The translations under genes and the position numbers were made by a program. Positions 1 to 8,775 of a DNA stretch of 64,000 nt are shown here, one piece after another. Source of the stretch: Sphingobium sp. SYK-6 (lineage in GTDB: Bacteria > Pseudomonadota > Alphaproteobacteria > Sphingomonadales > Sphingomonadaceae); assembly GCF_000283515.1 (NCBI RefSeq), contig NC_015976.1:1240001-1304000 (forward strand), given 5' to 3'. Under the pieces are notes generated by a model. The model was not told the DNA's origin, ran no database searches, and saw only the letters and a list, made by a program, of their open reading frames with translations. Positions within the stretch are counted from its first letter, which is position 1. Each line of letters begins with the position of its first letter.

Positions 1-320
1 ATGTGCTGTGGCACGGCCATGTGCCCGAGCGGATCTGCGAATGCCTGCCGCCCGTCGGCCTTGCCTGCGCGCGCGTGCTGCTCCGGCTGATGGAGGAGCC
101 GGGGCGCTCCGTGCCGGTCCGGGAGCTTGGCGCCGCCGCGGGAACGCGGTCGAGCTCCACGAGCGTCGTCAAGGTCTATGTCTGCCGCCTTCGCAGCGCG
201 CTGGCGCGGCAGGGCATTTCTCCCGCCGTGATCGAAACGGTCTCGCGCAGCTACAGGCTGCGGCCGGACGGGCTGGTGTCGCTCAGCCAGTTGCTCGCGG
301 CGCGACGGCCGGCCGCCTGA
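1..320 (+). CDS. Winged-helix (OmpR/PhoB C-terminal type) DNA-binding protein, 5' truncated by window edge
   Basis: The reading frame is open from base 3 and ends with TGA at 318-320; the true start probably lies upstream of the window. The visible 105 residues fit the effector domain of response regulators. A first helical part (about residues 18-45, with VLLRLMEEPGRSVPVRELG) is followed by a recognition-helix-like segment SVVKVYVCRLRSALARQG, and then by the wing IETVSRSYRLRPDG, comparable to the usual xI.TVRG.GYRL end. A receiver domain cannot be seen because the sequence is cut. It sits directly upstream of, and co-directional with, the phytate operon, so it might regulate that operon, but this is only positional inference. 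The family call is fairly sure; the role is unknown. Confidence 0.6.
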   Translation, partial: VLWHGHVPERICECLPPVGLACARVLLRLMEEPGRSVPVRELGAAAGTRSSSTSVVKVYVCRLRSALARQGISPAVIETVSRSYRLRPDGLVSLSQLLAARRPAA

Positions 321-373
321 TCCGCGCCGGGCGCGCAGCTGGCGCCCAGCTCCGGCGAGCAGTCCACAAGTCA

Positions 374-391
374 CTGTCACCGTTCCGTCAC
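374..391 (+). promoter_or_regulatory. Candidate PHO box (PhoB-binding direct repeat) before the phytate operon
   Basis: Two 7-mers, CTGTCAC and CCGTCAC, lie in direct repeat with a 4-nt spacer (CGTT). This is the 7-4-7 architecture of the PhoB box, whose consensus unit is CTGTCAT/C. The second unit is 17 nt upstream of a weak -10-like TGTAAA (408-413), so it could take the place of a -35 element. The TonB-dependent receptor start follows at 465. The match is by eye; PhoB control is inferred from this and from the phosphatase and phytase genes downstream. Confidence 0.6.
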
Positions 392-464
392 GAAAATGGC
401 GCGAGAGTGTAAAGAAGCCCTCCTAACGGCGCTCCCGAGAAGAAAATCCAGGGGGCAGATTATC

Positions 465-3284
465 ATGAAGACTCGGGTTGCAATGAAACTGGCGGCGGGC
501 CTGCTGGCCGCGGCTTCCACCACCACCGTGGCACGCGCGGGCGAACTGGCCGGGCAGGTGCTGGATGTATCGGGCACGCGGGCGCTGCAGTCGGCGCGCG
601 TCGTGATCGCCGAGATCAACCGGACGGTGGAGACCGCGCGCGACGGCAGCTTCCTCATTCCCGATCTGCCCGCCGGCACCTACACGGTGCAGGTCAGCTA
701 TGTCGGCGCGGAGACGAAGAGCGAGACGGTGACGGTGCCGGCGCAGGGGCGCGTGACGCTCAACTTCGGCCTGAGCGGCTATGGCCCGGACGACATCCTC
801 GTGGTGGGTCAGGCGGCCAATCTTTCCAGTTCGCTTTCGCGCCAGCGCGCCGCCGATGGCGTCGAGAATGTGCTGACGCGCGATTCGATCGGCCAGTTCC
901 CGGACCAGAATGTGGCGGAATCGCTGCGTCGCCTGCCGGGCCTCAATATCCTGAACGATCAGGGCGAGGGGCGGTTCGTCTCGGTGCGCGGGCTCGATCC
1001 GGAGCTCAACGCCGCGTCGATCAACGGCACGCGCGTCCCTGCGCCGGAGAGCGACGTGCGCTCGGTGGCACTGGACGTCATCCCGAGCGAGCTGATCGAA
1101 TCGATCGAGGTCAAGAAGACCCTGACGCCGGACATGGATGCCGACACCATCGGCGCGTCCATCGAGATCAACACGACCAGCGCGTTCGACCGCAAGAAGG
1201 ACCTCTTCTCGGTGAAGCTGGAAGGCAGCTACAATGATTATGCCAATGCGCTGACGCCCAAGGGCAGCTTCGATTTCTCCAAGCGCCTCGGCGACAATTT
1301 CGGCATCGCCGGCGGCTTCAGCTACTACAAGCGCAAGTTCGAGACGGACAATATCGAGGCCGCGGACTGGACCGAGTCCGATGCCGGCGTCTATTATGCC
1401 GAGGAAGTCCAGTATCGCGATTATGACGTGGAGCGCGAGCGCATCGGCGGCTCGCTGAACCTGGACTGGCGCGTGAGCGACAGCACCAAGCTTTACGCGC
1501 GGGGTCTCTACAGCGAGTTCTCGGATCAGGAATATCGCGGCGACATCATCCTCATCATGGACGAGGAGCCGCGCGCCGGCACCGCGACGAGCGCTTCCTT
1601 CTCGGACGAGGACGGGCGCATCGAGGTCCGCCGCCGGATGAAGGATCGCTTCGAGAAGCAGCGCATCAAGTCGCTGACCATCGGCGGCGAGACCGAGGCC
1701 GGCCCGTGGAAGGCGGTCTATGCGGGGTCCTGGTCGGAAGCATCGGAGCGGGAGAACGGCTCCGTCGATCCGACACGCTTCCGCGCGCGCTTCGACGGCG
1801 ACGGGGTGGGCGTGGACTTCGATTATTCCAATCCGCGTCGCCCGCTGTTCACGATCACCGGGGACACGGACCTCTTCAACGATCCGGAGGAATATGGCTT
1901 CAACGAGCTGGAGCACACGGTGCTCTCGGACTCGAAGGACCGCGAATATATGCTGAAGGGCGATCTTTCGCGCGTGTTCGCCTCGGCCGCCGGCTCGTTC
2001 ACGGTGCAGGGCGGCATCAAGGCGCGCTGGCGCGAGAAGTCCTACGGCCTCCAGTCGGACGTCTATGATGATTATGACGGCGACTATACGCTGGCGGACG
2101 TGCTGGGGCGGCAGAGCTATCGCATCGCTGATCTGGGGCCGCTCCCCAGCCACACCGGCCCGACCGATTTCTTCAACCGCAACCGCGCGAACTTCGAGCT
2201 GAACCAGGTCGATACCGACGTCGCCTCGAACGCGTCCGATTATTCGGTGAAGGAAGACGTCCTCGCCGCTTATCTTCTGGGCCGGTGGGACAGCGAGAAG
2301 GTGCGGGTGATCGGCGGCGTGCGCATGGAGCGCACCTGGAACGACATCCGCGCCAAGCGCACGCAGATCGTGGCGGAAGGCGACGAATATGAGGGCGTGG
2401 AAGTCGAGGAAGACACGGTCTTCGTCACGCCCAACCGGTTCGAGCGCAGCTATACCGACTGGCTGCCCAGCCTGGCGCTGCGGTACGAGCCCTCCGACGG
2501 ACTGGTGCTGCGCCTGGGCGGCTACAAGAGCCTCGTGCGCCCCAAGCTCTCCAACCTCGCGCCCCGCATGGAGATCAATGAGGATCGCGAAGTGACCGTG
2601 GGCAATCCCGATCTGGCGCCCTATCGCGCATGGAATATCGATGCCTCGGCGGAATGGTATTTCAGCAAGAATGCAGCGCTCACCGGCGGCTTCTTCTGGA
2701 AGTCGATCGACAATTTCGTGGTGGAGCAGCGCATCACCACGCCGGGGACCATCGATGGCGTGGCCTATACGGAGCTGACGACCTACATCAATGGCGATAC
2801 CGCCAAGGTGAAGGGCGTGGAGCTCTCCTACAACCAGCTCTTCACTTTCCTGCCTGCGCCGTTCGACGGCCTGCTGCTCAACCTCAATTACACCTATACC
2901 GACGCGACCGGCACGGTGCTGACCGATGGCGACATCGCCGATCCGCGCAACATTCCGCTCGCTGCCTCGGCACAGAACACCTTCAACATCGTGCTCGGCT
3001 ACGAGAAGGGGCCGCTCTCGCTGCGTGCGGCGGGCACCTATCGCGACAAATATCTGGACGAGCTGGGCGGCGAGGCGGAGCAGGACCGCTATGTCGACGA
3101 GCATTTCCAGCTCGACCTTTCCGCCAAGTATCGGCTCACGAAGAATGTCCGCCTGTTCGCGGAATGGATCAACGTGACCGACGCGCCTTACTTCGCCTAT
3201 CAGAATTACGGCAATGCCAAGCGCGTCCTGCAATATGAGGCGTATAACTGGACTGCCAAGTTCGGCCTTACCGCCAGCTTCTGA
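465..3284 (+). CDS. TonB-dependent outer-membrane receptor with N-terminal carboxypeptidase-regulatory-like domain (phytate operon)
   Basis: A 939-residue outer-membrane receptor that should bring a ligand across the outer membrane using TonB/ExbBD energy. The start at 465 is preferred over an upstream in-frame ATG (396) because it is preceded by a GGGGG-type ribosome site and opens a clean signal peptide ending ARA at about residue 25. The mature part begins with a beta-sandwich CarboxypepD_reg-like domain (about 27-105). A TonB-box-like DDILVVG and a plug (VENVLTRDSIGQFPDQNVAESL, RGLDPELNAASINGTR) follow, then a long barrel ending in aromatic F. Genes for a phosphoesterase and a phytase follow in the same direction, so the ligand is probably phytate, inositol phosphates or a metal-phytate complex. 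The receptor call is secure; the ligand is inferred. Confidence 0.93.
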   Translation: MKTRVAMKLAAGLLAAASTTTVARAGELAGQVLDVSGTRALQSARVVIAEINRTVETARDGSFLIPDLPAGTYTVQVSYVGAETKSETVTVPAQGRVTLNFGLSGYGPDDILVVGQAANLSSSLSRQRAADGVENVLTRDSIGQFPDQNVAESLRRLPGLNILNDQGEGRFVSVRGLDPELNAASINGTRVPAPESDVRSVALDVIPSELIESIEVKKTLTPDMDADTIGASIEINTTSAFDRKKDLFSVKLEGSYNDYANALTPKGSFDFSKRLGDNFGIAGGFSYYKRKFETDNIEAADWTESDAGVYYAEEVQYRDYDVERERIGGSLNLDWRVSDSTKLYARGLYSEFSDQEYRGDIILIMDEEPRAGTATSASFSDEDGRIEVRRRMKDRFEKQRIKSLTIGGETEAGPWKAVYAGSWSEASERENGSVDPTRFRARFDGDGVGVDFDYSNPRRPLFTITGDTDLFNDPEEYGFNELEHTVLSDSKDREYMLKGDLSRVFASAAGSFTVQGGIKARWREKSYGLQSDVYDDYDGDYTLADVLGRQSYRIADLGPLPSHTGPTDFFNRNRANFELNQVDTDVASNASDYSVKEDVLAAYLLGRWDSEKVRVIGGVRMERTWNDIRAKRTQIVAEGDEYEGVEVEEDTVFVTPNRFERSYTDWLPSLALRYEPSDGLVLRLGGYKSLVRPKLSNLAPRMEINEDREVTVGNPDLAPYRAWNIDASAEWYFSKNAALTGGFFWKSIDNFVVEQRITTPGTIDGVAYTELTTYINGDTAKVKGVELSYNQLFTFLPAPFDGLLLNLNYTYTDATGTVLTDGDIADPRNIPLAASAQNTFNIVLGYEKGPLSLRAAGTYRDKYLDELGGEAEQDRYVDEHFQLDLSAKYRLTKNVRLFAEWINVTDAPYFAYQNYGNAKRVLQYEAYNWTAKFGLTASF

Positions 3285-3348
3285 TCGCGCGAGCGACTGG
3301 CCGGCCGCGTCCCTTGCGCGGCCGGCAGTTCATTTTGGGAGGATGCCG

Positions 3349-4758
3349 ATGTCACGATCCGGTCTTTCGTTCAGGCGGGCGTTTCTGCCGGCGCTGCTGC
3401 TGGGCGCATCCTTCGCGGCGCAGGCCCAGGCGCCGCTTCCCCGGTCCGCCGGCACGCCCTATGCGCCGCGCACCCTGCCGGACCGCATCGTTCTGACGCC
3501 GGGAGCGGACCCCAGCCGGGAAATGGCGGTCGCTTTCCGCACGGACCTGCTCCAGCGCACGGCCGAGGCCGAGATCGGGCCCGCCTTGGATGGCCCGACG
3601 CTGGAGGAAAAGGCCGTGCGCCTGACCGGCACCAGCCGCCGGATCGAGAGCAGCAATGGCCCCGCGCTTTATCACCAGCTGCGCTTCACCGGACTGACGC
3701 CGGACACCGCTTATGCCTATCGGGTGAAGGGCAGCGCGGGCTGGAGCGAGTGGCTGCAGTTCCACACCGCCGCGCAGGAGCCCCGGCCTTTTCGCTTCAT
3801 GTATCTGGGCGATATCCAGAACGGCATCCTCACTTATGCCTCGCGCGTCATCCGGCAGGGCTTCCATGCGAATGGCGGCATCGCGCTGGTGCTTCATGCC
3901 GGCGATCTCGTCGCCCAGCGCGACGACCTCGATCATGACGACGAGTGGGGCGAGTGGAACCAGGCGGGTGGCTATAATTATGCCATCGTCCCGCAGGTGC
4001 CGGCCACCGGCAATCACGAATATGTCGACGTCCCGGCTGCCGACGGCAAGGAAAGCCGCGCGCTCGGTCCCTATTGGCCGGTGCAGTTCGCGCTGCCGGA
4101 CAATGGCGCGGCGGACGTGAAGGCGACCACCTATTTCATCGATTATCAGGGCGTGCGCTTCATCGTGCTGGATGGCACCTCGGCGATCGACCTGGGGACG
4201 ATGGCGGCGCAGACGCGCTGGCTGGACGAGACGCTCGCGAGCAGCAAGGCGCGCTGGAACGTGGTGCTGTTCCACCAGCCGGTGTTCACCTGCGCGCGGC
4301 CGAACGACACGGCGCAGATCAAGGCCGCCTGGAAGCCGGTGTTCGATGCCCGCAAGGTGGATCTGGTCCTGCAGGGCCATGACCATTGCTACAGTCGGCT
4401 GACGAACGAGGCCGGGAGCGCGGCGGGCATCGCGGCACGCGCGGGCGGCGCGGTGCAGGGGCCGGTCTATCTGGTCTCGGTGACGGGCTCGAAAATGTAC
4501 GGCCTCAATGACCGGGCATCGACGCAGCCGGACAAGGTGGCCGAGGCGACAGAGCTCTACCAGATCGTGGATGTGGCGGGCGATCGCCTCAAGTTCCGCA
4601 CCTTCACGGCCTCGGGCAAGCTCTACGACGGGTTCGATCTGGAGCGCCGGGCCGATGGCAACCATCTGGTCGAGACCGACGAGCCGACGATCGCGCGGCG
4701 CACCTGCACCGGCAATGTCGGGCCGGATGGCGGGGCCTGCGTGGCCAGATCCAAATGA
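3349..4758 (+). CDS. Secreted purple-acid-phosphatase-like metallophosphoesterase
   Basis: This 469-residue enzyme has a signal peptide (about 1-26, ending AQA) and a fibronectin-III-like N domain typical of purple acid phosphatases (about 40-140). The calcineurin-like phosphoesterase core carries the metal ligands in order: LGDIQNG, HAGDLV, TGNHEY, LFHQP and LQGHDHCY. The start at 3349 is chosen because GGGAGG lies 6 nt upstream; an ATG at 3343 is directly against that site. The stop overlaps an ATG of the next gene (ATGA at 4755). It should hydrolyse phosphomonoesters in the periplasm or at the surface. Next to a phytase it could finish dephosphorylation of lower inositol phosphates, which is inference. 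Confidence 0.88.
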   Translation: MSRSGLSFRRAFLPALLLGASFAAQAQAPLPRSAGTPYAPRTLPDRIVLTPGADPSREMAVAFRTDLLQRTAEAEIGPALDGPTLEEKAVRLTGTSRRIESSNGPALYHQLRFTGLTPDTAYAYRVKGSAGWSEWLQFHTAAQEPRPFRFMYLGDIQNGILTYASRVIRQGFHANGGIALVLHAGDLVAQRDDLDHDDEWGEWNQAGGYNYAIVPQVPATGNHEYVDVPAADGKESRALGPYWPVQFALPDNGAADVKATTYFIDYQGVRFIVLDGTSAIDLGTMAAQTRWLDETLASSKARWNVVLFHQPVFTCARPNDTAQIKAAWKPVFDARKVDLVLQGHDHCYSRLTNEAGSAAGIAARAGGAVQGPVYLVSVTGSKMYGLNDRASTQPDKVAEATELYQIVDVAGDRLKFRTFTASGKLYDGFDLERRADGNHLVETDEPTIARRTCTGNVGPDGGACVARSK

Positions 4759-4769
4759 AGGACCATGAC

Positions 4770-5861
4770 ATGGGACGGGCTGCGCGCATGAGATACGGGG
4801 CCGGGATCGGCGGGGCGCTGCTGGTATCGCTGCTGGCGCTTTCCGCCTGCGCGGAGCGGGAAATGCCGTTGGCCGAGCGCATCGCCAATGCGCTGCCCGC
4901 CGCTTCCGTCACGGCGCGCGGCGAGACCGAGCCGGTCGGCACCGCGAATGCCGATGCGGCGGACGATCCGGCCATCTGGCGCAATGCCGCCGATCCGGCC
5001 GCCAGCCTCATCGTCGGGACGGACAAGAAGGCCGGCCTCTATGTCTATGGGCTGGATGGCAAGCGCCGCGACTTTCTCGATGCGGGGCGCGTCAACAATG
5101 TCGACCTCAAGGACGGCGTCATGATCGGCGGCGCGCCCGGCGTGCTGGTGGTGGCGAGCGACCGCAACGACCCGGCGCAGGCGAAGCTGGCGCTGTTCCG
5201 GCTCGATACCGCCGCGGCGAAGCTGGTCGCGCTCGGCACGCTCGATGGCGGCGCCGGGGAAGCCTATGGCATCTGCCTCGGGCGCGATGCTGCCGGCCTT
5301 TCCGCTTTCATCGTGCTCAAGGACGGCACGATCAATCAGCTGCTGATCGATGCCGCCGGTGCGGCGCCCACGGGGCGGATCGTGCGCACGATGAAGCTCG
5401 GCACTCAGGCGGAAGGTTGCGCGGTCGATGACCGCACGGGCCGGCTCTACGTCGCGGAGGAGGATGTGGGGCTCTGGCGCTTCGGCGCGTCCCCCACGGC
5501 GCCCGTGGAGCCAGTGAAAGTCGCGGCGGCAGATGGCCGGCAGATCGTGGCCGACGCGGAAGGCGTCGCGCTGGTGCCGGAGGGGGAGGAGGGCGGCTAT
5601 GTCATCGTCTCCAGCCAGGGCGACAATGCCTACACGCTCTACAGCCTGCCGGACGAGCGCTATGTCGGCCGCTTCCGGATCGTGGACGGCACGGTGGGCG
5701 GCGCGCAGGAAACGGACGGCATCGAGTTCATGGCGGGCGATTTCGGCCCGGAATTTCCCGGCGGGCTGTTCATCGCGCAGGATGGCCAGAATGGCGCGCA
5801 GGCCCAGAATTTCAAGCTGGTGGCCTGGGCTGACATCGCGGCCGCGCTGGGGCTGGAATAG
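4770..5861 (+). CDS. Beta-propeller phytase (3-phytase family), lipoprotein
   Basis: A calcium-dependent beta-propeller phytase of 363 residues, the usual family length. Recognisable blocks in order are DDPAIW, TDKKAGLYVYGLDG, EGCAVDD, EEDVGLW, DAEGVALV, SSQGDNAY, GGAQETDGIE, PGGLFIAQDGQN and NFKLVAW. It releases phosphate from phytate. The N-terminus is a lipoprotein signal with lipobox LSAC, suggesting anchoring in the envelope. The start at 4770 is favoured by GAAGGA (4757-4762) 7 nt upstream; an ATG at 4755 overlaps the stop of the phosphoesterase gene and is an alternative. Tight spacing shows translational coupling with the phosphatase. Family assignment is very secure. Confidence 0.93.
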   Translation: MGRAARMRYGAGIGGALLVSLLALSACAEREMPLAERIANALPAASVTARGETEPVGTANADAADDPAIWRNAADPAASLIVGTDKKAGLYVYGLDGKRRDFLDAGRVNNVDLKDGVMIGGAPGVLVVASDRNDPAQAKLALFRLDTAAAKLVALGTLDGGAGEAYGICLGRDAAGLSAFIVLKDGTINQLLIDAAGAAPTGRIVRTMKLGTQAEGCAVDDRTGRLYVAEEDVGLWRFGASPTAPVEPVKVAAADGRQIVADAEGVALVPEGEEGGYVIVSSQGDNAYTLYSLPDERYVGRFRIVDGTVGGAQETDGIEFMAGDFGPEFPGGLFIAQDGQNGAQAQNFKLVAWADIAAALGLE

Positions 5862-5994
5862 ACGCGCCGACAGACCGGCCTCGGCACGGCATTCCCCGGG
5901 CCAGTTGCGCGCGCCGCCTGGGGGCCCCGGAAGCCTCATCCATCGCCGGAGGGAACGCGATTGCGCGGGCCCTGCCGCCTGCTAGGATGGGCCG

Positions 5995-6588
5995 ATGTCC
6001 AGATCGCTCCGCTGCCTCGCTACTCTCCCGCTTGCCGCCACGCTGTGCGTGCAGGCCGCCGCGCAGACCCCGGCGCCGGCGCAGGACCGCTTCCTCGCGT
6101 CCCTCGCGGCGCTGTGCGGCCATGCCTATGAGGGCAAAGTGACGAGCAGCGATGCGGCGGACGCGGACATGGCGGGCAGCAGGCTGGTCATGCATGTGCG
6201 CTCATGCACGGCGGACGAGGTGCGCGTGCCGTTCCATGTGGGCGAGGACCGCTCACGGACCTGGGTGGTGAGCCGGACGCCCGCCGGGCTGCGGCTCAAG
6301 CACGATCATCGCCATGAGGACGGCAGCGAGGACAAGCTCACGCAATATGGCGGGGACACGGTGGCCCCGGGCACGGCGGAAAGGCAGGAGTTCCCCGCCG
6401 ACGCCTATTCGCGCGCCATGTTCATCGCTCAGGACATTCCCCGCTCCGCCACCAATGTCTGGGCAATGGAGATCGTGCCCGGGCAGCGCTTCGTTTATGA
6501 ATTGCGCCGTCCCGGGCGGCATTTCCGGGTCGAGTTCGACCTCACCCGGCCGGTCGCGCCGCCGCCGCCGCCCTGGGGTGCGGAATAG
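5995..6588 (+). CDS. Secreted protein of unknown function
   Basis: A 197-residue protein with a clear Sec signal peptide (MSRSLRCLATLPLAATLC...AAAQ, cleavage near residue 24). The rest is a compact domain with two cysteines (ALCGHAYEG and RSCTADE) that could form a disulfide in the periplasm. It ends in a proline-rich tail. Alternating charged and aromatic strands (RTWVVSRTPAGLRLKHDH, RHFRVEFDLTRPV) suggest a beta-rich fold. I do not recognise a named family. It lies 133 nt beyond the phytase gene and could be read with it or independently. Confidence 0.7.
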   Translation: MSRSLRCLATLPLAATLCVQAAAQTPAPAQDRFLASLAALCGHAYEGKVTSSDAADADMAGSRLVMHVRSCTADEVRVPFHVGEDRSRTWVVSRTPAGLRLKHDHRHEDGSEDKLTQYGGDTVAPGTAERQEFPADAYSRAMFIAQDIPRSATNVWAMEIVPGQRFVYELRRPGRHFRVEFDLTRPVAPPPPPWGAE

Positions 6589-6774
6589 ACCGCCGGGGCT
6601 GATGTCGATCGGCCCGAAATGCGGCAGTAATGGCGTGGTGAGCGGACTGCCATGTTCTAGCGCACCGTTCTGTCGACCAGGCCCCAGACGTAGAAGAAGT
6701 GCCATGTGATCGGGCTATACGAAACACTTGGTCGTAGACGTACCGAGCGGTTCGTATGCAACTCCCACTATTGT

Positions 6775-7413
6775 TTAGCGCAATTTATCCGCAGTTTCGA
6801 AATGCGAGCATTGGTCGGACAATGCCTTTTGAAAGGCAGGGCGGGATGTGACCCGCTCGATATAGGACTCGCTTGCGGTTCTTTCACCGAAACTGCGTAC
6901 GAGTTCGACGCGCAGTACATCGGCCATTATGAGGTCGGCGAGTGTGAAGCGATCACCTACCAACCATTCGTGATCAGATAGCACCGCTTCCATTTGGTCG
7001 AGCCGCTTAGACATCCATTGCGTTATTTCCAGGACGTCCTTCTTCGACCACTGCAGTACGATCCAGGGCATCGTGACTATCTCTAATGAATTCAGGGCAG
7101 CAAAAGTCCATTGAAGGACTTCAGCGCGCCCCCGCTCATCAAAGGGGATCAGGTTTTCGCTTTTGTGACCAAGGTGCAGAAGGCTTGCTCCGCTTTCGAA
7201 AAGACGAACATTGCCATCTTCGAGCATGGGCACCTGACCAAAGGGCTGACGGTCGAGGTGGTTGGTCTCGCGGTCATCAAACGCGATAGTGTCGATACGG
7301 TAGGGAATACCGGCCTCCTCGCAAGCCCAGCGTAACCGGATATCGCGCACGAAACCTCGCGGCATTTCAGGAACCCAATCGAGGGTCCAGATAGTGACAG
7401 GTTCCTTCGTCAT
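6775..7413 (-). CDS. Glutathione S-transferase family protein
   Basis: A cytosolic GST-like protein of 212 residues. The thioredoxin-fold N domain includes RLRWACEEAGIPY, the cis-Pro segment FGQVPMLEDGNVRLFESGASLL (residues about 55-78, matching the glutathione-binding VP.L and ES motif) and an all-helical C domain with the N-capping box FTLADLIMADVL. The start at 7413 has GGGAGA 8 nt upstream; an in-frame upstream ATG (7437) lacks this. The gene is clearly poorer in GC than its neighbours and uses codons such as ATA, TTT and GAA more often. That fits recent acquisition. The substrate cannot be predicted. Confidence 0.88.
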   Translation of the reverse strand: MTKEPVTIWTLDWVPEMPRGFVRDIRLRWACEEAGIPYRIDTIAFDDRETNHLDRQPFGQVPMLEDGNVRLFESGASLLHLGHKSENLIPFDERGRAEVLQWTFAALNSLEIVTMPWIVLQWSKKDVLEITQWMSKRLDQMEAVLSDHEWLVGDRFTLADLIMADVLRVELVRSFGERTASESYIERVTSRPAFQKALSDQCSHFETADKLR

Positions 7414-7608
7414 CGCTTGCGTCTCCCACCCCAGCAAGATTCCGTGCCGTCGAAATCTAGAGAAGTGCGAAACCGAGTGTCAGGTTCCGGGTGATCATTA
7501 AATTGGACTGGATGTTCGCGATGTTGTCGCATCCGGAAGGTCTGATACGCGCTTGAAATGTCCAGATAGCGGGCGTCTTTATCGACTTGGGAATCTGTCC
7601 ACGCGCCC

Positions 7609-8775
7609 TCAGCCTTTGGGCGTCAGCTTGAGCATCTTGCCGTTGGGGCCGTCCTGCAGCAGCCACAGAGCGCCGTCCGGCCCCACGCGCACATTGCGCA
7701 GGCGCATGCCCATCTTCCAGTGATCGGCCTTGGTCGCCTTCTCGCCATCGAGCGAGATGCGGGCCAGCGCCATGCCGGAGAGGCCCGTGATGAACAGCGA
7801 GTTCTTCCAGGCGGGGAACAGGTCCGCGTCATAATAGGCCATGGACGCCGGCGCGAGCGACGGGTTCCAGTAGAGCCTGGGCTTCACGAAGCCGTCATCC
7901 TCGCTGTGATCGGGGATCGGGCGCTTGTCATAATGGTCGCCGTAAGAGCGGACCGGCCAGCCATAGTTGGCGCCCGGCTTCACCAGATTGAGCTCGTCGC
8001 CGCCGAGCGGGCCCATCTCGACTTCCCAGAGCCGCCCGTCGCGATCGAAAGCGATGCCGGTGAGGTTGCGCTGGCCGTAGGACCAGATCGCGGGATGGAA
8101 GCCCTTGTCCGCCAGCGGGTTGCCGGCCGCCGGCGTTCCGTCCAGATTGAGGCGCAGCACCTTGCCGAGCGTGGACTTGGGGTCCTGCGAGGGATCGAAC
8201 TTGGCGCGCTCGCCATTGGTGAAGAACAGATGTTTCCGGTCCGGCGAGAAGGCGATGCGGCCGGACCAGTGGGCGCCGCTCTCGATAAAGGGCTCGGCGC
8301 GGAAGATCACTTTCATGTCGTTCAGCGCGGCCCCGGCCTCGTCCAGCGTCGCGGTGGCGAGCGCGGCGCCGTTGGTCTTGCCTTCGCCTGGCTCGGAATA
8401 GCTGAAGTAGATCTTGCGGCTGGTCGCGAAGTCGGGGGCCAGCACGATGTCCATCATCGCGCCCTGACCGGCGCTGACCACCGGGGGCGTGCCGGACAGC
8501 GTCCGCTTGGCGCCGCTCGCCGGATCGAACAGTATGATCGCCCCCTGCTTCTCCGTCACCAGGATCTTGCCGTCCGGCAGGAACGCCATCGACCAGGGCG
8601 AATCGAACGTGCCGATCTCCGTGACGGCGAAGGGCTGCTCGGTCTCCTTCCCGGCTGCCCCGTCGCCGGACGGCATGGCGTTCGTCTGCGCGTCGCCGGG
8701 GGTGGAGACGCCCGAGCAGGCAAGCAGCATGAGCGAGAAAGTGCAGGCGAGGCCGACGGTCTTGCGGGCATTCAT
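7609..8775 (-). CDS. PQQ-dependent sugar dehydrogenase (soluble GDH / YliI-type), lipoprotein
   Basis: A 388-residue beta-propeller enzyme of the glucose/sorbosone dehydrogenase family, oxidising aldose sugars in the envelope with PQQ. Family blocks visible are SPWSMAFLPDGKILVTEKQG, GQGAMMDIVLAPDF, ESGAHWSGRIAFSPD, NLTGIAFDRDGRLWEVEMGP, GDELNLVKPGANYGWPV and a C-terminal GPDGALWLL. The start at 8775 follows GGAGA by 8 nt and gives a lipoprotein signal with lipobox LLAC; the longer frame upstream has no signal. PQQ supply is not encoded here. The gene is divergent from the small secreted protein at 8995. Confidence 0.88.
   Translation of the reverse strand: MNARKTVGLACTFSLMLLACSGVSTPGDAQTNAMPSGDGAAGKETEQPFAVTEIGTFDSPWSMAFLPDGKILVTEKQGAIILFDPASGAKRTLSGTPPVVSAGQGAMMDIVLAPDFATSRKIYFSYSEPGEGKTNGAALATATLDEAGAALNDMKVIFRAEPFIESGAHWSGRIAFSPDRKHLFFTNGERAKFDPSQDPKSTLGKVLRLNLDGTPAAGNPLADKGFHPAIWSYGQRNLTGIAFDRDGRLWEVEMGPLGGDELNLVKPGANYGWPVRSYGDHYDKRPIPDHSEDDGFVKPRLYWNPSLAPASMAYYDADLFPAWKNSLFITGLSGMALARISLDGEKATKADHWKMGMRLRNVRVGPDGALWLLQDGPNGKMLKLTPKG

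Follow-up and report, generated by a model that had tools for sequence, protein, structure and literature searches.

A putative tandem PhoB operator in front of TonB receptor, phosphatase-like and phytase genes in Sphingobium sp. SYK-6

We analyzed a stretch of 64,000 nucleotides from Sphingobium sp. SYK-6 (NC_015976.1, positions 1,240,001 to 1,304,000; hereafter the window), which opens with a gene fragment for a DNA-binding protein followed by genes for a TonB-dependent receptor, a metallophosphatase and a phytase (Table 1). The end of the Trans_reg_C gene (320) and the start of the receptor gene (465) are 144 nt apart. The N-terminus of the receptor is a CarboxypepD_reg-like domain, and the protein belongs to the TIGR01782 subfamily, scoring 605 bits against a curated cut-off of 310. 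An alternative in-frame ATG at 396 lies within the repeat array described below and is not plausible as the receptor start. The receptor and phosphatase genes are separated by 64 nt, and the phosphatase stop overlaps the phytase start by 4 nt. Inspection of the metallophosphatase points to a signal peptide, and the protein is predicted to be secreted. The phytase is assigned to the beta-propeller class, as it exceeds the PF02333 cut-off and aligns over most of its length (residues 51-366) to a solved structure, the Bacillus-type phytase 3amr (E 8e-60). Compared with this homolog, the window phytase is a likely lipoprotein, judging by inspection of its lipobox (LSAC, Cys32), and its gene shares an operon with that of a TonB receptor. 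A first-pass annotation of the locus had already named the receptor, phosphatase and phytase genes; domain searches and comparison with solved structures confirmed these calls and refined the phosphatase to a purple-acid-phosphatase-like protein.

Table 1. Features at the 5' end of the window (positions in the window)
Feature	Position	Strand	Description
Gene fragment with C-terminal Trans_reg_C DNA-binding domain	window start to 320		small gene; window opens within it
Putative PHO-box array	374..417	+	four 11-bp units starting at 374, 385, 396 and 407, which form a pair of adjacent PHO boxes
TonB-dependent receptor	465..3284	+	939 aa; Pfam plug and barrel
Intercistronic hairpin	3300..3326	+	11 pairs, 10 of them G-C; weak T tail
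Purple-acid-phosphatase-like metallophosphatase	3349..4758	+	469 aa; PF00149 and PF16656
Beta-propeller phytase	4755..5861	+	368 aa; PF02333, 241 bits

A search of public genomes with the phytase returned at least 517 relatives, and the best 80 loci were kept. Among these 80, the closest relatives are mostly from Sphingobium, with best-segment identities of at most 79%. Upstream of the window (L122:204-8330) lies a repetitive open reading frame of 2,708 aa, in which LLSLTGV occurs 19 times at a spacing of exactly 85 aa.

The solved structures nearest in sequence to the phosphatase-like protein are plant purple acid phosphatases. Its Pur_ac_phosph_N and Metallophos domains exceed their cut-offs, and it has GD, GD, GNHE, H and GHDH motifs. 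In purple acid phosphatases, the tyrosine of the GDxxY motif binds Fe(III). This tyrosine is absent from the window protein, which reads GDLVA at this point, and alanine replaces it in all seven relatives in which the motif was found (L044, L049, L052, L053, L057, L072, and L082); L103 gives no clear reading there. Because the tyrosine is missing, we class the protein as purple-acid-phosphatase-like and not as a purple acid phosphatase. Its gene is present at 8 of the 80 phytase loci kept from the at least 517 relatives.

PHO boxes are arranged in tandem at the pstS promoter of E. coli. The classical PHO box is described, in the available part of the source, as 11-nt direct repeats with a 7-nt core that reads CTGTCAT in E. 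coli (PMC4415409). The first-pass annotation had reported a clean PHO box, CTGTCAC-CGTT-CCGTCAC, upstream of the receptor gene. This repeat is present on the plus strand at 374-391 exactly as given, matches CTGTCAY-N4-CTGTCAY at 13 of 14 positions, and leaves 73 nt between position 391 and the receptor ATG. The annotation was right but understated, as the repeat is the first half of a four-unit array whose end at 417 lies 47 nt before the ATG. The third and fourth units read ATGGCGC (396-402, weak) and GTGTAAA (407-413). "Clean" therefore holds for units 1 and 2 but not beyond them, since unit 3 is degenerate and scores below zero; the four units score 5.0, 10.5, -0.6, and 5.6, respectively, with the pstS-trained matrix described below. 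The array thus contains at least two direct repeats with a 7-nt core and a period of 11, and we regard it as a putative PhoB site that differs from the classical box, as described in the available part of that source, in its CTGTCAY core, its degenerate third unit and its fourth unit, GTGTAAA.

With a four-unit consensus score of 21/28, the array is the top site in the window, ahead of a runner-up at 19. Loose matching by itself proves nothing, because the window holds three sites with up to three mismatches to CTGTCAC-N4-CTGTCAC when 3.4 are expected. Only the site at 374-391 has a single mismatch, and the other two have three each. Across the 4.35-Mb genome, no site matches CTGTCAY-N4-CTGTCAY perfectly and five, including 374-391, have one mismatch. 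Sites with up to two mismatches number 64, compared with 33 for the reversed pattern.

The promoters of pstS are classical PhoB targets. In 25 of them (from the SYK-6 genome and 24 genomes of the same genus), the mean four-unit score is 19.6 at a period of 11 and 14.0 to 16.1 at the other periods from 8 to 15, so that only period 11 stands out. We trained a matrix on the pstS promoters of the 24 same-genus genomes and held out the SYK-6 genome. The training sites were selected by their match to CTGTCAY at a spacing of 11, so the matrix does not depend on the window but does depend on that consensus. Some of the promoters used for training are nearly identical to one another. When both strands of the window were scored, position 374 ranked first with 20.6 bits, and the best non-overlapping position reached 1.1. 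The held-out SYK-6 pstS promoter scored 43.4 bits, and the array at 374-417 carries the same motif as this promoter of its own lineage. In simulations, 20.6 bits was reached at none of 2 million positions with the dinucleotide composition of the window and at one of 2 million with that of the intergenic region 321-464. Matrix scores elsewhere in the SYK-6 genome cover preselected loci; they include a hit of 14.7 bits within coding sequence (L028) and antisense-strand scores of 10.6 and 8.0 bits at two other receptor loci (L133 and L135), so a high matrix score alone is not proof. Near phoB, a gene for a phosphate-selective porin (Porin_O_P; L001:1563-2981) is preceded by a PHO-like array at 1479-1522 that scores 23.8 bits.

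Conservation of the repeat upstream of orthologs was a check proposed by the first-pass annotation. Of 81 phytase loci (the 80 kept plus the window), 70 have an adjacent receptor open reading frame, namely those of 69 relatives and the window. These receptors form three clusters at 40% identity linkage, with 31, 22, and 17 members. The receptors of cluster 1 are all co-directional with the phytase, and those of clusters 0 and 2 occur in both orientations. An array scoring above 6 bits was found in 55 of the 70 receptor promoters in this set drawn from the best 80 of at least 517 relatives (22 of 31, 20 of 22, and 13 of 17 by cluster), and the remaining 15 score at or below 6 bits. The median position of the array relative to the start used is -100, -105, and -126 in the three clusters. 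Some of these starts were assigned mechanically: 396 was used for the window, and the starts at L047 and L105 look wrong, so that both count as misses despite nearby hits. For the 22 receptors of the window type, the proposed conservation was borne out, with 20 promoters (window included) above 6 bits; L079 and L084 lack a pstS-like array at that threshold. These 22 promoters have a mean four-unit score of 19.3 when the period is 11, compared with 14.4 to 15.6 for other periods, so that period 11 alone is enriched. By plain consensus, 17 of the 22 have a shuffle P value below 0.05; with five misses, this consensus is too weak to judge single relatives, and three of the five (L032, L033, and L103) score above 15 bits by the matrix.

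In the background, 2.94 million strand positions contained 26 clusters that score above 6 bits, or about 0.006 per 360-bp zone. At a matched background threshold, the real matrix with its period of 11 accepts 63 of the 70 zones, compared with 0 to 10 zones at the wrong periods (9, 10, 12, 13, and 14) and a mean of 3.3 (maximum, 22) for 50 column-permuted matrices. The antisense motif passes in 20 of the 70 zones, which may stem from divergent promoters. When the 80 loci (the best of at least 517) were searched with the two-unit consensus, 43 sites agreed with it at 12 or more of the 14 positions, versus 6 for the reversed pattern. As the relatives are not independent of one another, these statistics overstate certainty.

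No receptor open reading frame was found at 11 of the 81 phytase loci, two of which (L053 and L058) are cut by contig ends. Of the nine that remain, three (L070, L073, and L094) score above 6 bits on the sense strand no more than 350 bp from the start of the phytase gene, and six do not. The period-11 signal was not seen at the phytase start in the 27 loci first classed as receptor-less, many of which later proved to have receptors of other clusters.

As a control within the SYK-6 genome, 36 receptor-type matches were grouped into 30 loci, of which 28, including that of the window, were scored. The other 27 receptor promoters reach at most 15/21 over three units and 18/28 over four units, compared with 17 and 21 for the window. 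This control is rough, because the first ATG was taken as the start and a small number of the loci represent fragments of a single gene. Nevertheless, a PHO-box array does not seem to be a general trait of receptors.

The genome contains the cognate regulatory system. Its PhoB exceeds the NCBIfam cut-off (337.9 versus 296.2 bits), and the genes for PhoB, PhoU, and PstS lie in one cluster, where PstA/B/C-type genes and a histidine kinase gene (likely phoR) adjoin pstS. The likeness of the window array to the genome's own pstS promoter array links it to PhoB over other OmpR-family regulators. Collectively, the first rank by the pstS matrix, the conservation among relatives and the period of 11 support the PHO-box reading of 374-391 that the first-pass annotation had put forward. 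From these sequence comparisons, we consider it very probable that 374-417 is a tandem PhoB operator that controls the operon. Because a PhoB-type array precedes most of the related gene pairs that were examined, the cell probably turns on the import and the breakdown of organic phosphate jointly under phosphate shortage.

Under such control, phosphate scarcity would lead the PstSCAB/PhoR system to phosphorylate PhoB. Phosphorylated PhoB would then bind the four head-to-tail 11-bp repeats, which make up two PHO boxes, and recruit RNA polymerase. The promoter would be placed roughly between 418 and 450; a clear -10 element was not seen in that interval, and no sigma-70-like promoter was found in 300-464. 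A single mRNA would encode the receptor, the phosphatase and the phytase for the use of organic phosphate. The TonB receptor in the outer membrane would probably import inositol phosphates, either as such or complexed with metals, into the cell envelope, and the metallophosphatase, presumably periplasmic, and the phytase, presumably lipid-anchored, would release phosphate.

The cargo of the receptor is less certain than the PhoB operator. TonB receptors commonly carry metal complexes, and phytate chelates metals. The receptor of a PhoB-run operon could accordingly import a metal complex such as ferric phytate mainly for the metal, with the enzymes stripping phosphate from it. This reading is compatible with a PhoB operator, but the phosphate-type operator is a feature common to the receptor clusters, and we judge a primary role in metal supply to be unlikely. 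Since the receptor gene carries a conserved, probable PhoB operator, we favor the view that it belongs to phosphorus supply. With respect to the operator itself, regulators of the OmpR/PhoB family often use tandem repeats, and roughly a dozen PhoB-like response regulators of full length are encoded in the genome (12 matches span nearly the whole model), so that another of them might bind the 11-bp direct repeats. However, the array is recognized by a matrix whose training set consisted of pstS promoters alone, and arrays of this type also precede the genome's own pstS and the phosphate-selective porin gene next to phoB, which makes a regulator other than PhoB highly improbable. Least probable of all is a chance or decayed repeat without function: loose matches in the window are no more frequent than expected and single high matrix scores occur elsewhere in the genome, but the site ranks first by a matrix trained elsewhere and is conserved with turnover of bases at a constant period.

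We also examined the spacer between the receptor and phosphatase genes, which contains a G-C-rich hairpin. A 69-nt segment with the hairpin folds at -33.4 kcal/mol (z = -1.8), and 8 of 200 shuffled sequences fold as well. Of 17 relatives examined, 7 have a stem with the same CCGG-type arms at the corresponding position; the phosphatase gene comes next in five (L044, L049, L052, L057, and L082), and a spacer before the phytase gene holds the stem in two (L048 and L055). The other 10 of the 17 have no such stem, and in these the next gene starts at or overlaps the receptor stop; their coding segments also fold, at -20 to -38 kcal/mol. Among the seven distinct hairpin sequences (the window and six relatives, L057 being identical to L052), 97.3% of cells pair. 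Two pairs are changed on both sides, and 31 of 500 shuffles reach the observed covariation score, making the covariation only suggestive. The exact stem pattern is found at one place in the genome, so exact copies of the hairpin are not dispersed through it. The number of terminator-like patterns in the region does not exceed chance (3 found versus 2.5 expected), and no Rfam family reaches its gathering score in positions 1-8000 of the window. The hairpin may serve as an attenuator, or it may form an end that protects the mRNA; in either role it would let the amounts of receptor and enzymes differ. Being stable, it could uncouple enzyme levels from that of the receptor, and it might limit transcription of the enzyme genes.

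Phosphate-starvation control of phytase and TonB receptors is already known from Caulobacter and Flavobacterium. The PhoB regulon of Caulobacter crescentus, an alphaproteobacterium like the host of the window, includes several TonB receptors, a phytase and phosphatases (PMC11208175). The available part of that account gives neither a single-operon arrangement nor the operators of these genes, whereas the window has an operon with an array. In Flavobacterium johnsoniae, the phytase Fjoh_1367 and the TonB receptor Fjoh_1368 rise at low phosphate (PMC8115612); the two genes have neighboring locus tags with no gene between, unlike the window, where the phosphatase-like gene intervenes. This species also differs from the window host in belonging to the Bacteroidetes, and a PHO-box array like that of the window is not mentioned in the available part of the report. 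None of the titles and abstract openings found, a partial coverage of the literature, describes a PHO box in front of a phytase-receptor operon in sphingomonads, and phytase is not mentioned in the available part of a review of sphingomonad TonB transporters (PMC7142613). What is new here is the probable tandem operator, the finding that three clusters of receptors, in both orientations, retain it, and a hairpin shared by several relatives.

These features can be combined into a more tentative model, for which we see somewhat less than an even chance, of a phytate-use module in sphingomonads. In this model, the PhoB operator is the fixed element. Next to a single phytase lineage, receptors of at least three clusters would have replaced one another, in both orientations, and most retain the tandem array some 100 bp upstream of the start of the receptor gene. 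These receptors would be dedicated to importing inositol phosphates under PhoB control, and where an operon has a spacer, the shared hairpin would set how much receptor is made relative to the enzymes. A major part of the organic phosphorus stored in soil is phytate, and plants commonly have sphingomonads around them. The receptor described here is a specific candidate for the transport of inositol phosphates across the outer membrane, and the pstS-trained matrix offers a simple marker of phosphate-linked TonB receptors in genomes that encode dozens of receptors.

Two further loci came to light in the SYK-6 genome. At L187:5108-8751, a second TonB receptor gene (5108-7672) overlaps a Y_phosphatase3 gene and has a weak two-unit box upstream; the locus is absent from those scoring above 5 by the pstS matrix, and we do not claim PhoB control of this receptor. 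At L123:5305-5348 (G000:C1:4017304-4017347), a PHO-like array of 33.5 bits lies about 220 bp before the ATP synthase gene atpH, beside a divergent MCP gene. Upstream of atpH in the 24 same-genus genomes, the best sense-strand score is 4.5 bits (L193), so among these genomes the strong four-unit array was seen only in that of SYK-6; L193 and L212 have weaker two-unit sequences at a similar distance from atpH.
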